26,518 nucleotides of DNA from a virus: IMG/VR virus record IMGVR_UViG_3300022221_000023, positions 1-26,518 of that record, one strand, 5' to 3'. Of this stretch, positions 685 to 21,830 are shown in pieces (the stretch's first letter is position 1; each line of letters opens with the position of its first letter). The notes under the pieces were generated by a model that saw only the letters and a program-made list of their open reading frames with translations, was not told where the DNA came from and ran no database searches. A program made the position numbers and the translations under genes.

Positions 685-1758
685 TTATCTTGCGATATAC
701 TTCTTTATTGCCGACGTGGCTGTCACCCACATATGTACACCGTCAAACACAATACCGGATTGATTGTTTGATAAATTGTACGTTGCGATAACCGTATCAC
801 TATGTATGTCAATTTTTCTAACCTTGGTTGTCGCTTTTGACCAGATATACCTACCATCAAAAGCAACACCTTTTAATTGTTCGCCCGCAAATACCAGAGT
901 GTTATCAATTACACCGGTCTCTACGTTTATTTTTATTAAGTTTTCAGAATTATCAGAACACCACATATGCGTCCCATCGAATGCTGGAAAAAAGGCTGTT
1001 GCCGCGATGGTTGTGGTTGAATTGTCTGATACATTAATTTTTGTGATCACCGTATCTAACCAATTGCAAACCCAAAGGTGCGTGCCGTCAAATGCAGAAT
1101 AATAAGGAGCATTGCCCACTGCTATCGTGGCAACAACCGTGTCGGTCGTGATGTCTATTTTTGAGACGGTGTCATCTAATGTATTGCAGACCCAAACATG
1201 CCCGGATGCATAAGTAACGCCCGCTTGTTGTGAGCCACACGTCACGGTTGCATCGATGGTATTGGTTTCAATGTTTATTTTCACCGCATCTTGTGCTGTG
1301 CCGCCTGTATATACGCTCATCCATACATGCGATCCGTCAAATGCAAAACCATTCGCTGATCCGATCGCGTAAGGAATTGTTGCGTCAACCTGATGTGTTA
1401 ATATATTGATTTTTTGAATATCCCCTCCGCCGGGTCTAAGCCAAATGTGCGTACCATCAAAACACATAGCGTCCGCACCAATAGCAATTAAGTCTTTTCG
1501 GCCAGGTCGATATGACAGCCCGAGCGTGTCAGCCAGAAGCGGTACATGTGCAGCTCGACCATAGATTTTTCCGCCCAATCCTTTTTGTATCTGGTCGTCA
1601 TCTGCCGTGCTTAACGTTAGTCCGCACCACTGCACAATCTTTACTAGCTCGCGCTGTATGGTGTTGGCCCAACCGGCACGCAGGTCTGTTGTGGTGGGGG
1701 TTTCTTTGAATTCACCATTGCCGTCGGCGGTGGGGGTGTCGTCTCCGATTTTATGCAT
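685..1758 (-). CDS. Tail fibre/tip protein with seven-repeat beta-propeller
   Basis: 357 aa. An N-terminal segment (about residues 25-50, with RAGWANTIQRELVKIVQWCGLTL-like character) resembles the short helical region found near the N-terminus of many phage tail-fibre proteins. Seven repeats of about 38-42 residues follow, each with a core like FDGTHxW and then a K-I-(D/N)-I strand. Seven copies fit a seven-bladed YVTN/NHL-type propeller, which usually binds a ligand such as a surface glycan or protein. I chose the ATG at 1758: it overlaps the upstream gp48 stop by 8 bases and has GAGG upstream. The same frame stays open far upstream through the repeats of the neighbouring gene, but that stretch is out-of-frame repeat DNA and not coding. 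The gene is AT-richer than the baseplate genes (about 40% GC in the parts I counted), suggesting separate acquisition. Receptor-binding role is inferred from position. Confidence 0.75.
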   Translation of the reverse strand: MHKIGDDTPTADGNGEFKETPTTTDLRAGWANTIQRELVKIVQWCGLTLSTADDDQIQKGLGGKIYGRAAHVPLLADTLGLSYRPGRKDLIAIGADAMCFDGTHIWLRPGGGDIQKINILTHQVDATIPYAIGSANGFAFDGSHVWMSVYTGGTAQDAVKINIETNTIDATVTCGSQQAGVTYASGHVWVCNTLDDTVSKIDITTDTVVATIAVGNAPYYSAFDGTHLWVCNWLDTVITKINVSDNSTTTIAATAFFPAFDGTHMWCSDNSENLIKINVETGVIDNTLVFAGEQLKGVAFDGRYIWSKATTKVRKIDIHSDTVIATYNLSNNQSGIVFDGVHMWVTATSAIKKYIAR

Positions 1759-3565
1759 TTGTTTGTACCTCGTAGTCGTAGGTAATTGAATAGGTTTCGT
1801 TGAGGGGGTTGTCGAAAATGTGGGCACTGCCCTGGTCGATGTTGGCCCCCACATCATCAGCATGCGCCCCGACAATGGCGGTATCGCCATCACTTGATAA
1901 CGCAACCGAGAATCCAAAGCGATCATTGGCGGCACCGTCACCGGCGGTGAGTTGTTGTTGTTGAGTCCATACGCCAGTCGTCCGCATGTAGACATAGGCG
2001 CTGCCCTGGTTGGCGTTGGCCCCCACATCATCAGTATACGCCCCGACAATGGCCGTATGACCATCATTTGATAACGTAACCGAGGATCCAAAGCGATCAT
2101 TGGTGGCACCGTCACCGGCGGTGAGTTGTTGTTGTTGAGTCCATACGCCAGCCGTCCGTGTGTAGACATAGGCGCTGCCCTGGTTGGCGTTGGCCCCCAC
2201 AGCATGAGCATACGCCCCGACAATGGCCGTATCGCCATCACTTGATAACGCAACCGAGGATCCAAAGCGATCATTGGCGGCACCGTCTCCGGCGGTGAGT
2301 TGTTGTTGTTGAGTCCATACGCCAGTCGTCCGTGTGTAGACATAGGCGCTGCCCTGGTCGGCGTTGGCACCCACATCATCAGAATTCGCCCCGACAATGG
2401 CCGTATCGCCATCACTTGATAACGCAACCGAGGATCCAAAGCGATCATTGGCGGCACCGTCACCGGCGGTGAGTTGTTGTTGTTGAGTCCATACGCCAAC
2501 CGTCCGTGTGTAGACATAGGCGCTGCCCTGGTCGGCGTTGGCCCCCACATGATCAGCATGCGCCCCGACAATGGCGGTATCGCCATCACTTGATAACGCA
2601 ACCGAGAATCCAAATTGATCATTGGCGGCACCGTCACCGGCGGTGAGTTGTTGTTGTTGAGTCCATACGCCATTTATGTCGCGAGTAAAAACATATGCGC
2701 TGCCCTGGTCGGCGTTGGCCCCCACATTATCAGCATGCGCCCCGACAATGGCGGTATCACCATCACTTGATAACCCAACCGAGCGCCCAAAGTAATCATC
2801 GGCGGCACCGTCACCGGCGGTGAGTTGTTGTTGTTGAGTCCATACGCCAGCCGTCCGTGTGTAGACATAGACACTGCCCTGGTTGGCGTTGGCCCCCACA
2901 GCATGAGCATACGCACCGACAATCGCCGTATCGCCATCACTTGATAACGCAACCGAGAATGCATAGTAATCGTTGGCGTCACCCTCTGGATCAAACAACA
3001 CCGTTTCATTAAACGCCTCGTAAGTAAACGTCGGCACCGCATGCGCCTGGTTGAGTCGCATCATCACGCATTCGAGGGCTTGTTCATCGCCATATGTGCG
3101 CAGTGCTGTGCCGACGGTGTGGCCAGCGCCCTCGCCGACGGATAGTCGAGTGATGGGGACGTCATGCACGTTGATCTCGTAATGGTGCGGCGTGACTTTG
3201 TCGATGATGTCGATTGTGTAGCCCATGCGACTGGCGACGCTGATAAGGTACGGGATGTTGTGACCGCCGATGCCAAGATATCGACCAACAACTGCTGCAC
3301 GACGCTCTTCAATCGTGGGGTTGATGGTGTTGCTGCAGGTGTCGGGCAGGTTAAGAACGCGCTCATAATCTGTCAGCAGCTCGGATGATGTGCGTGGGTC
3401 GGCCTCTTCCATGAGATCATCTTCGCGTTGGTCGAGTCTTGCGAATTCATCGGCAATCGCATGACATAGTTTTGCCATTGTGCTTGTGATGTTGCGTGCC
3501 CAAGCCCGGCCACGGGGAAAAAGATTTAATAATTGATCGCGATAGTCTTCCGCACTTATGCCCAT
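1751..3565 (-). CDS. Mu gp48-like baseplate protein fused to a seven-blade FG-GAP propeller
   Basis: 604 aa, roughly three times the usual length of gp48/YmfQ (DUF2313) proteins. Residues 1-184 are the ordinary family domain: start MGISAEDYRDQLLNLFPRGRAW, then EERRAAVVGRYLGIGGHNIPY and a C-terminal part rich in conserved turns. That domain sits at the baseplate periphery and connects to fibres. From about residue 191 to 590 come seven near-identical 58-residue repeats with cores such as FGxSVALSSDGDTAIVGA, then QGSAYVYTR and VWTQQQQLTAGDGA. These match FG-GAP/integrin-alpha-type blades, and the DGD loops are typical of calcium sites. Start ATG overlaps the end of gp47 by 10 bases; the stop overlaps the fibre start. 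The propeller fusion is unusual and is probably an adhesin at the tail tip (inference). Confidence 0.85.
   Translation of the reverse strand: MGISAEDYRDQLLNLFPRGRAWARNITSTMAKLCHAIADEFARLDQREDDLMEEADPRTSSELLTDYERVLNLPDTCSNTINPTIEERRAAVVGRYLGIGGHNIPYLISVASRMGYTIDIIDKVTPHHYEINVHDVPITRLSVGEGAGHTVGTALRTYGDEQALECVMMRLNQAHAVPTFTYEAFNETVLFDPEGDANDYYAFSVALSSDGDTAIVGAYAHAVGANANQGSVYVYTRTAGVWTQQQQLTAGDGAADDYFGRSVGLSSDGDTAIVGAHADNVGANADQGSAYVFTRDINGVWTQQQQLTAGDGAANDQFGFSVALSSDGDTAIVGAHADHVGANADQGSAYVYTRTVGVWTQQQQLTAGDGAANDRFGSSVALSSDGDTAIVGANSDDVGANADQGSAYVYTRTTGVWTQQQQLTAGDGAANDRFGSSVALSSDGDTAIVGAYAHAVGANANQGSAYVYTRTAGVWTQQQQLTAGDGATNDRFGSSVTLSNDGHTAIVGAYTDDVGANANQGSAYVYMRTTGVWTQQQQLTAGDGAANDRFGFSVALSSDGDTAIVGAHADDVGANIDQGSAHIFDNPLNETYSITYDYEVQTNA
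1812..2995 (-). repeat. Seven-copy 174-base in-frame tandem repeat
   Basis: Counting the shared linker motif that begins GGTGAGTTGTTG (plus strand), copies start at 1946, 2120, 2294, 2468, 2642 and 2819. The spacings are 174, 174, 174, 174 and 177 bases; the extra codon is the DINGVW variant blade. Seven protein blades result. Copies are nearly identical at DNA level, and each linker carries a short CAA-type microsatellite that encodes QQQQ. The high identity suggests recent amplification or gene conversion. Because the period is divisible by three, several frames stay open across the array. Confidence 0.9.
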
Positions 3566-4611
3566 GTGATGGTCCCCACGACTGCGATTTGCGATGGCAG
3601 TGTTGTGACGTCGGCGGCTGGTGCGGTGAGGGTATGATCCTCTTCGTCTTCGGCTATCGATATCGCTTCATTGATTTGTGACAAGTAGATACCGCCACCG
3701 GGTTCGGCACGTCGAACAAACAGGTCTTTGATCTCGGCTTCGACTTCGAGACGGATGGCTGGCGTATCGGGCGTGATGGACAAGGTGATGTCGATAGCCT
3801 TGGGCACCGGCGCTTGAACATTGGCATCGGCGGTGGCCGGGCGAACATTATCGATATAGTTTTGCACGGTGGTGACATCACCGGCTTGCGGTATGCCATC
3901 GCCATACGTGTCATCCATCATGAAGCGGACCACGACAGTGCCGTCACCGTTTTCGAGTGGATAAGACCAGGCGCGAGTGACACCGGCGACTTCTTTTGCC
4001 CAGGCGATGTAATCATTTTTGTTGCCGCCCTGGGTGGGCTTGCGCCAGCGCTCCAGAATGCGCTCTCTGTAGTCGGCCAGGGCTTCGATGTCGGTGCCGC
4101 CCGTGAGGCCAGAGGCATTGACGGTGGCAAGACTATCGATACCCGCGATAGGTGATGTGAGGTTGACATTAACTCCGGCAACAGTGGTGCCATTCGCCCC
4201 CGCCAGCACGGCGGTGACGGCAGCGGTGGCAACACCGGCCGCGATGGTGACCAGGGCATCAGTGGTGTAGGCGACACCATCGGCACGTTGTACTTCGGTA
4301 CCGACCGGGATGTTGGTGCCGTTGGTGCCGGTAAAGTCAACATTGCCGGTGGCCTTGGTGGCCGCCTTGCGCGGTATGTCTCGGATGTTGCCGTGGCGCA
4401 GCAACCACTCTTCGTCAGCCGTGTCGGGCAGGATCTGTTTGGCTTTCCATGCCTGGTAGCCATACATGAGATGTATTGCTCCGGCCAGCACCGTCGCCAG
4501 CACATTGAGGACCGTGCCTTTTAATTTTGACTCAACACCGGGCATGCGGGTGTTGATGTCGGACTGAATGCGGTCTTTTAATTCGGCGAGTGTTGGGCGT
4601 GTAAATGGCAT
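3556..4611 (-). CDS. Mu gp47-like baseplate J protein
   Basis: 351 aa, the usual size for the baseplate J/gp47 family (the wedge protein forming the baseplate ring of contractile tails). The N-terminus MPFTRPTLAELKDRIQSDI is characteristic. Family features follow: a hydrophobic LAGAIHLMYGYQAW stretch, PDTADEEWLLRHGNIR, a threonine/alanine-rich beta region, and GTDIEALADYRERILERWRKPTQGGNKNDYIAWAKEV-type segment in the second half. It lies between gp46 and gp48 as in Mu, but a small extra gene (4612-4836) separates it from gp46. Its stop overlaps the gp48 start by 10 bases, so the two are probably translationally coupled. Confidence 0.93.
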   Translation of the reverse strand: MPFTRPTLAELKDRIQSDINTRMPGVESKLKGTVLNVLATVLAGAIHLMYGYQAWKAKQILPDTADEEWLLRHGNIRDIPRKAATKATGNVDFTGTNGTNIPVGTEVQRADGVAYTTDALVTIAAGVATAAVTAVLAGANGTTVAGVNVNLTSPIAGIDSLATVNASGLTGGTDIEALADYRERILERWRKPTQGGNKNDYIAWAKEVAGVTRAWSYPLENGDGTVVVRFMMDDTYGDGIPQAGDVTTVQNYIDNVRPATADANVQAPVPKAIDITLSITPDTPAIRLEVEAEIKDLFVRRAEPGGGIYLSQINEAISIAEDEEDHTLTAPAADVTTLPSQIAVVGTITWA

Positions 4612-14456: not shown

Positions 14457-15851
14457 TCATTGCAATGTATATGTGGCGGTTCGTTGTTTTAGATCGAACT
14501 GCATCGACCGGGAAGCCAGGCCGAATGACATGGAACGGGTTGATAACGCAAAGGTGATCAACGCGACACCCTGGCCCTGGCCTGGCTGGGTCTTGATGAT
14601 GATGTCGGTGCCTTGTGCGTTATCGATGATGGATAACAGTGCCGCGATGTTGACTTGATCGTTACCGGTACCCAGATCCGTGATGGGTACGCTGACAGAT
14701 AACGTGACCGAATCAGCCCCGGTTGCGGAATCGGTGACGGTCTTTAATACGGCGGCTAAAATACTTAAGGTATCGGCACCGGTGCCTGCATCACTGATAG
14801 CCAGGGCGGCGGCAATGGCCAGGTCGTCAGAACCGGAGGCGGTATCGTTAACACTTAGCTGTACACCCTGGTTGGTGTTGTCGTTGCCGGTACCGGCATC
14901 GGTTATGGACAAGGCCACATCAGCGCCGGGATCGAGATCGTTTCCTGTGCCCACATCATTAACGGCCAGTCCGACAGCAATAGCCAGATCATCATTCCCA
15001 TTGCCGGTGTCGCTGACATTGATGTTTGTTACGGTTACCCCTTCGGGCACCCAGATACCGGCATTGGCGGGCATCAGCGTATCGTATAAATTACTAGCCA
15101 GCTCAAAATGCTCGCCATCATCACAAAATCGATCAGCAATAAACGCTACATTAGCGCGCCCTTTAATACCGGACACATCGTTTCCATATCTGTCTGAGCA
15201 ATTTACAACGACATCATTTTCAGTGTTCCACGCAATCACCCCCGCTGTTGACGGAGTAACAGACCCGATAAACTCGCCATTTCTGTAAAATCTAGCGGTT
15301 GCTGAGCCGGAGACAATAGACATGCTGGCGCTATAAATATACAGGCTGCCGTCGATTTTTAAGTACGATGATCCCGGCAATGTCGCCGTCGAGTTTGCTC
15401 CGCCGACTGAATAGTGTATTTTTACTTGCCCCGCAACATTGGTCGCTGACAAACCAAACGATAAGTACGGGCTCGACCACGACCCGGTTTGATAAGGCAC
15501 CGAGACAAGCCCCATAAAATTAACGTGTGCGTCAATTTCACCCGCCCACACCACCGTGATCTCGTTTGTTATCTGATACAGCTCAGGAGTGCCGGGGCAA
15601 TATGCCGCATTATCAATGCTATCTAATGTTTCTAACGCATCGCCGTGATCTGTTACACCATTAAAATCAGCATCCCCTCTTAGTGTCATCGGGGCATTTG
15701 ACACTAACTCGGTTGCGTTATCACCTAGTCGTGCATACCAAACAATATTATCGTGTAGCCAATGATCCCGGTTTAAAACCGTTTCATTTGATTTGCAATT
15801 CGGGGTTAATAACTCCGGCGCAAACAGCAGTTTGTCGAGTTCGTGACGCAT
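14457..15851 (-). CDS. LamG-like virion protein with D-x-G-T-G-x-D repeats
   Basis: 464 aa. Residues about 28-260 look like a LamG/concanavalin-type jelly roll (VWYARLGDNATELVSN, ITVVWAGEIDAHVNFMGLV, SLYIYSASMSIVSGSATARF, GEFIGSVTPSTAG), a fold that often binds sugars. Residues 278-416 hold eight repeats of about 18-20 residues with core (S/T/N)D-x-(G/A)-(T/S/N)-G-x-D, for example DVGTGND, DAGTGND and DLGTGND, followed by short beta strands. The C-terminus has three FxLxxRxxxF-type strands ending TATYTL. Start and stop both overlap neighbours (TAATG, ATGA). Located among head/neck genes, it may be a head fibre or decoration that binds surface glycans (inference). Confidence 0.72.
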   Translation of the reverse strand: MRHELDKLLFAPELLTPNCKSNETVLNRDHWLHDNIVWYARLGDNATELVSNAPMTLRGDADFNGVTDHGDALETLDSIDNAAYCPGTPELYQITNEITVVWAGEIDAHVNFMGLVSVPYQTGSWSSPYLSFGLSATNVAGQVKIHYSVGGANSTATLPGSSYLKIDGSLYIYSASMSIVSGSATARFYRNGEFIGSVTPSTAGVIAWNTENDVVVNCSDRYGNDVSGIKGRANVAFIADRFCDDGEHFELASNLYDTLMPANAGIWVPEGVTVTNINVSDTGNGNDDLAIAVGLAVNDVGTGNDLDPGADVALSITDAGTGNDNTNQGVQLSVNDTASGSDDLAIAAALAISDAGTGADTLSILAAVLKTVTDSATGADSVTLSVSVPITDLGTGNDQVNIAALLSIIDNAQGTDIIIKTQPGQGQGVALITFALSTRSMSFGLASRSMQFDLKQRTATYTLQ

Positions 15852-20807: not shown

Positions 20808-21830
20808 TTATTTATCTGCTTTTTGGGCGCTACCCTGACTTTTTATTGAACGTGTCATAAGCATTTTCTTTCTTCCTAAATCTGTAAGTATCCAAAATAA
20901 AGCCACTGTATTAGCTTTTGTTGTCAATGGTTTTATATCTATCCATCCCAGAGCCAAGAGTTGAACTTTGATAGTCTGGAATATTTCATCATCAATTTTT
21001 TTGGTATAAAAGGAATTCGCATCAACCCCGATAGTATTCAATATAGACATAGCTAGTTGTGAATTAATAGTATCTTCATTTATATGCTGTAGTAAATGAG
21101 GACCTAAAAATGATATTATTTGGTTCCAGCTTACTTCTGACTCATGTTTAAAGGTCATACTTTCGTATTTTTCTTGATATATAATTTTTACAGGTATTCG
21201 CTCATCACCAGATGAAATATCCTGTGAGTCAATTACTACAGTAGAAGGAACCGATGCGAGTTCTAATTGTAATTCCTCATTTTTATTTCTTAATGCATTA
21301 ATTTGTTCAAGTAGGTCTGAGTTACTCACTGCGTTAGCACGTACCCAACCGATAGCTGGAAAAGCCTTTATTGCGCGCGTCAAGCTTAAAGCTACTAATC
21401 CAGGTAGCTCCTCCGCACTACTCCACTTTTTGACGAGGCGATCTCTACTGACTTTCTCTATAAATTCTTCTAATCTCTTTCGGGTATCAGGGTGCAATTC
21501 TGACTTCCCTGCAGGTATTGAGTTAGGATCCCCATGCACAAATGCTATGATGTGCAAACCTTGAGACACGGCATAATCAAACTCCAGCTCTGTGTAACTT
21601 ATCCCTTCATCTGTTGTAGTTCCATACCGGCCGCCTATTATCAGGATATAGTAATCACAGTCATCGATGATTTTTTTTATGAACTCAATCTGCTCTTGAT
21701 CAGCGGCAGGAAATAACTCCATACCTGTTGGAATACAGTCCATTTGAAGTAATGTTTGCAACACCCGCTGACGCTCTACAGTAAGGTCAGTATATGTTGA
21801 GCTAATAAATACTTGGTATCTCTTGTCCAT
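20808..21830 (-). CDS. DUF4062-domain protein, candidate defence cargo
   Basis: 340 aa. Residues 5-90 are a clear DUF4062 domain: [40 protein letters not shown] and [14 protein letters not shown]. This domain has an alpha/beta TIR-like arrangement and often starts larger immune or signalling proteins. A short coiled coil follows (about 171-193, [19 protein letters not shown]). The C-terminal part (about 225-330) ends ALGWIDI ... [12 protein letters not shown], typical of a winged-helix-like tail. No catalytic NADase residues can be assigned with confidence. GC content is far lower (roughly 38% by spot counts) than the neighbouring genes, and it has its own promoter and terminator. It is likely horizontally acquired cargo expressed in lysogeny; the anti-phage role is inference. 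Confidence 0.85.

Follow-up and report, generated by a model that had tools for sequence, protein, structure and literature searches.

A predicted seven-blade FG-GAP propeller within the gp48 baseplate gene of a Mu-type phage contig

An enlarged gp48 gene in a Mu-type baseplate operon

The window, which is the whole 26,518-nucleotide stretch of the 26.5-kb IMG/VR record, from an environmental sample, analysed here, carries on its minus strand one open reading frame at 1751-3565 that begins with ATG and encodes a protein of 604 amino acids (Table 1). The N-terminal part of this protein was matched by the Pfam profile Phage_Mu_Gp48 (PF10076) at residues 10-182, covering profile positions 1-149 of 150 (90.3 bits against a curated cut-off of 37.4, 1.4e-25), by PHROG 203, 'baseplate wedge subunit', at residues 1-187, and by Mu gp48 in PDB entry 9ki1 (3.8e-13), in agreement with a sequence-only reading of this DNA that had placed a gp48/YmfQ domain at residues 1-184. 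Profile searches with Pfam and PHROGs identified the gene order gp43-gp44-gp45-gp46-gp47-gp48-fibre and, because gp43 to gp47 lie upstream in order, the 604-aa gene was assigned to a Mu-type baseplate operon. The order from gp43 to gp48 and fibre is conserved in five relatives, to whose gp48 proteins the gp48 domain is 64-70% identical, and a methylase also follows in two of them (L187 and L191), whose contigs extend far enough.

Table 1. Coordinates of features at the gp48 locus of the window
Feature	Coordinates	Strand	Evidence
gp48 domain (baseplate wedge BW3, fibre-docking), residues 1-184	3014..3565	-	PF10076, PHROG 203, relatives, 9ki1
Predicted seven-blade FG-GAP_2 propeller insert, residues 185-588; strand 186-190 closes blade 7	1802..3013	-	PF14312 x7, AlphaFold2, DSSP register
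Retained gp48 C-terminal strand/tail NETYSITYDYEVQTNA, residues 589-604 + stop	1751..1801	-	YSITY(D/N)YEVQ of relatives directly after PTFTY hairpin
GAGGT Shine-Dalgarno-like site of fibre gene, within retained gp48 tail	1767..1771	-	Same place in L106, L186, L190, L038
Tail fibre gene, anchor domain residues 1-~62, then seven-blade YVTN/YncE-type propeller	685..1758	-	PHROG 17105/1858 N-terminus
gp47 baseplate J, upstream neighbour	3556..4611	-	PF04865, 251 bits; 61-70% identical in relatives

The remainder of the protein, about 404 residues more than an ordinary gp48, contains seven stretches matching FG-GAP_2 (PF14312; 351 bits against a curated cut-off of 23, 3.3e-107); the repeats matched this Pfam family only, with no match to PF01839 in the 604 residues. 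Blade anchors lie at residues 201, 259, 318, 376, 434, 492 and 550, with spacings of 58, 59, 58, 58, 58 and 58, and thus the seven blades of the sequence-only reading were recovered, five of their spacings at the claimed 58 residues and one at 59. At the DNA level blades 1-6 are 82-95% identical to one another and blade 7 is 70-76% identical to them. Only three repeat strands are present in blade 7, the fourth being the strand at residues 186-190, ahead of blade 1.

The adjoining fibre gene gave YNCE/YVTN matches, mostly just under the curated cut-offs, together with seven motifs of the DG-x-H-x-W type, and when searched with its family profile it matched the S-layer YVTN propeller 1l0q (5.9e-42). 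Behind the same fibre anchor, a YVTN-type propeller is found in four of the relatives (L106, L186, L190 and L191) and seven FG-GAP_2 blades in L038. In another frame a mechanical ORF of 662 aa (685-2673, minus strand) spans five of the blade repeats before entering the fibre gene and could mislead annotators into extending the fibre start, which by conservation is at 1758.

Site, rarity and closest matches of the insertion

Gp48 proteins of the five relatives are about 200 aa long and end in '..PTFTY-GAAAD-YSITYNYEVQ..'; the one found by gp48 scan (L106) has 201 aa, is 69% identical and ends ..LNQAHAVPTFTYGAAADYSITYDYEVQLNA, and the same short form is present in L038/L187, L186, L190 and L191. 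The window gp48 reads ..LNQAHAVPTFTYEAFNET-[propeller]-NETYSITYDYEVQTNA, and comparison with the empty hairpin of the relatives places the propeller within the last hairpin turn and shows that the final strand was retained. Judged from these alignments, the FG-GAP propeller is an in-frame insertion into the C-terminal hairpin turn of gp48 and no mere C-terminal fusion: the sequence-only reading had been right that both domains share one ORF, but had taken the blades simply to follow gp48. Both joins are in frame and disrupt neither half of the gp48 hairpin nor the start of the fibre gene. Between the gp48 stop and the fibre start there is an overlap of 8 nt (ATGCATAA), and as the tail both overlaps this start and carries the GAGGT, its retention may serve translation of the fibre, the structure of gp48 or both; since the insertion lies upstream of the ribosome site of the fibre gene, fibre translation would be preserved. 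A direct repeat (AAYGAAACN, encoding NET) flanks the insert at 3005-3013 and 1793-1801 on the minus strand, and may be a trace of insertion or may be due to chance.

FG-GAP repeats were absent from all 86 gp48 ORFs taken from phage and IMG/VR loci, 85 of which had C-terminal tails of 31 residues or fewer. The remaining ORF (L149, 4001-4918) has an additional C-terminal tail of 113 aa. A second FG-GAP insertion in gp48 was found neither among about 90 gp48 genes nor in 50,697 phage records, none of the phage records covered 80% of the 604-aa protein, no further gp48 with an FG-GAP propeller emerged when IMG/VR and genome contigs were scanned directly, and a DNA pattern scan for the C-terminal tail returned known relatives only. 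Within the collections and pattern scans used, one contig carries the insertion, in keeping with the earlier impression that the arrangement is unusual in Mu relatives. A literature search, which mostly excluded subscription papers, gave no paper pairing FG-GAP with a phage baseplate or with a tail fiber.

FG-GAP_2 propellers themselves are common in viruses and frequent in phage tail regions; a single pair of patterns matched 202 stretches in IMG/VR, and the majority of the examined ones had seven blades. Phage proteins of this repeat family (L021-L105, including Caudovirales CAB4202542.1, Vibrio nt-1 and cyanophage S-TIM5) mostly have seven blades and, as in the window, a strand ahead of blade 1 that closes the ring; unlike the window protein they are standalone or fibre-like, none is joined to gp48, and usually nothing follows blade 7. 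The closest sequence matches of the window propeller are large Planctomycetota proteins (66.6% identity for L008 and 63.6%) and phage tail-region proteins, among them a seven-blade FG-GAP_2 protein encoded among tail-fibre genes (L021, 60%). The L008 protein, which matches query residues 148-587, was considered as a second gp48 fusion and rejected, being a surface-protein-like Planctomycetota ORF of 1559 aa with eight FG-GAP units; PF10076 was absent from the five genomes with matches of this kind. A recent direct copy from the fibre of a sister phage was also rejected, as the fibre propeller of L038 is only 44% identical, below both L008 and L021.

Predicted fold of the insert

The structure of the 604-aa protein was predicted with AlphaFold2 from an alignment of 51 sequences taken solely from the window and fetched loci, in which close gp48 relatives were kept and distant gp48 sequences were excluded because MAFFT spread them across the repeats. 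The single-chain model (mean pLDDT 85, pTM 0.73) contains a closed ring of seven four-stranded blades in which residues 186-190 form the velcro strand of blade 7, with pLDDT 95-99 per ten-residue block over residues 190-588, lower in the last block. The integrin-type seven-blade propeller proposed from the sequence was thus reproduced in the prediction, with neither disorder nor fewer blades. The E-values, the DNA identity among blades 1-6 and this high-confidence closed model together rule out a chance resemblance. The gp48 half was modelled less well (block pLDDT 32-83), with pLDDT below 50 both in the loop 137-158 of the monomer, which corresponds approximately to the fibre-docking loop of Mu, and in the retained tail, where a short strand was placed at 592-595; the model therefore does not fix exactly how the propeller is oriented on gp48. 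In the closing blade of the predicted propeller the first strand is next to the last, which lets the propeller fit into a hairpin turn and would keep the gp48 strands adjacent.

The best PDB folds were integrin alpha propellers (E-values down to 1e-18; target-normalised TM scores as high as 0.68), which share with the insert the seven blades and the FG...GA framing of strands A-B, at 15-20% sequence identity; among predicted viral proteins, the nearest in structure came from giant viruses and phages and were of FG-GAP or related types. Calcium-binding propellers of the integrin/VCBS type are marked by DxDxDG in loop AB (PMC8023676). In contrast, a pattern scan found neither this type of loop (D.[DN].[DNG]G..[DE]) nor DxDG in any blade or elsewhere in the 604 residues, so that the calcium dependence earlier proposed for the disc is unsupported, although 'adhesin-like' can reasonably be inferred for the propeller.

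A putative second host contact on the baseplate

Gp48 of Mu is the baseplate wedge protein BW3, located at the baseplate periphery in one copy per wedge and six per baseplate, and its residues 133-155 dock the tail fibre (PMC11915804); six gp48 chains are present in 9ki1. These residues align to approximately 139-162 of the window protein, about 20 residues ahead of the insertion. The window gp48 resembles Mu gp48 and YmfQ in its domain (PF10076, DUF2313), in its gene position after gp47 and before the fibre gene and, by homology, in fibre docking; it differs in that Mu gp48 (180 aa) and YmfQ (194 aa) have no propeller in the C-terminal hairpin. Given the one copy per wedge in Mu, a trimer, which the sequence-only reading had entertained, is unsupported.

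We infer, at a probability of roughly 0.6, that the inserted propeller serves as an accessory module for binding the host surface, carried on the six wedges that dock the fibres. A seven-blade FG-GAP_2 propeller has been inserted in frame into the C-terminal beta-hairpin turn of gp48 (BW3), and if the copy number of Mu applies, each wedge would display one such disc, giving six at the rim of the baseplate close to the fibre anchors. Each would bind host-surface glycans (probably) or proteins as a second contact alongside the fibre, whose predicted tip is itself a propeller. The domains, the insertion site, the empty sites of relatives, the predicted closed fold and the exchangeable fibre propellers come directly from the present analysis, and the copy number, peripheral position and fibre docking of gp48 from the Mu literature. 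Propellers have been described before in phage receptor binders and at the baseplate periphery. PhiKZ gp131C (cited in PMC4901313) is a seven-blade propeller at the rim of a contractile-tail baseplate and a proposed receptor binder; it is not described as belonging to a wedge protein of the gp48 type. The receptor-binding protein Gp45 of phi11 has a baseplate propeller thought to hold cell-wall sugar (PMC4901313), but it is a trimeric, dedicated receptor-binding protein of a siphophage with five blades.

The propeller could instead decorate or scaffold the virion, stabilising the baseplate rim or touching the fibre propeller without binding a host receptor. Propellers can be structural in tails, as in the core of the SU10 nozzle protein with its fibre-dock loop (PMC9509320), and the insertion lies close to the fibre-docking loop. 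Differences among the blades, moreover, showed no significant clustering on the putative binding face (p=0.15, or p=0.19 for the densest run of five residues); a high pN/pS in selected loops had been considered as a signal of selection and was dropped, the choice of loops being circular. Yet the relatives, whose baseplate and fibre anchor are the same, manage without this propeller, and the closest sequence matches are the large Planctomycetota proteins, with the surface-protein-like L008, and phage tail-region proteins, which makes a purely structural role unlikely, at something like one chance in five.

Ig-like domains on phage heads have been proposed to act through weak, general adhesion, and the propeller might similarly keep virions near cells by binding matrix or capsular glycans with no recognition of a specific receptor. 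VCBS-like propellers are usually associated with recognition of carbohydrates (PMC9218822), and the adjoining fibre already ends in a propeller that may be the specific receptor binder. The location is, however, the baseplate rim and not the head, and the present evidence does not separate weak from specific binding; we regard this explanation as rather improbable.

An assembly artefact, in which gp48 and an unrelated FG-GAP gene were brought together in a chimeric contig or repeat collapse set the number of blades, appears improbable to a still greater degree. The insertion is known from a single contig, with no second phage carrying it, and near-identical repeats of 174 bp misassemble easily, so that short-read assembly could have changed the blade copy number. 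Against this, the joins are in frame at both ends with hairpin halves and fibre start intact, the GC content of the insert (56%) is close to that of gp48 (55%), the seven blades close a ring, and the insert has a diverged cap in blade 7 and a diverged stretch at the start of blade 1, like mature propellers and unlike a random join. That the insert is a neutral or decaying passenger, as its single occurrence might suggest, is hardly credible given a frame open across 1.2 kb of repeats, a pN of 0.093 below the pS of 0.128 between blades, and strands B and D with no amino-acid change between blades (p=0.001, strands picked post hoc).

Comparable arrangements were found in two other phage loci. 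After the same conserved strand, a gp48 of 42% identity (L197; IMGVR_UViG_3300032373_001149, 2545-3990) runs into six Asp-box-like motifs spaced 40-46 aa apart, with sub-threshold PSII_BNR/Ycf48 matches and a pLDDT of 34 in AlphaFold2 without alignment. From its motifs this is apparently an independent gp48-propeller fusion of the Asp-box (YCF48/BNR-like) type; it shares with the window a propeller-type repeat run at the same point, but the propeller family is unrelated, and the run is appended with no returning strand. In L036 (4128-6047) a seven-blade FG-GAP propeller lies within a phage tail Collar domain, a parallel in-loop insertion.

If displayed as proposed for the accessory host-binding module, the propeller would mean that a structural wedge protein, beyond the fibres, carries host-binding domains, with a clear before/after gene pair. 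The arrangement suggests that phages are able to fit new host-binding parts directly into the base of the tail, at a Mu-type baseplate site that tolerates about 400 inserted residues and retains the translation start of the fibre gene, and it would link fibre-tip and baseplate propellers as a single exchangeable pool. More tentatively, and with the odds somewhat against it, the gp48 C-terminus may be a plug-in port that Mu-type phages repeatedly load with propellers from unrelated families, such as FG-GAP in the window and Asp-box in L197, giving a second sixfold ring of host-binding discs independent of the fibres and exchangeable with those at the fibre tips.

Two further genes of the window, both on the minus strand, were noted. 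Between the head and tail genes, a 464-aa protein (14457-15851) with no Pfam or PHROG match has an N-terminus that appears lectin-like by eye, followed by repeats of about 20 aa (xDxGTGxD...), and adjoins a 169-aa protein of phrog_23653. Past the structural genes lies a DUF4062 protein of 340 aa (20808-21830), possibly of accessory or defence type.
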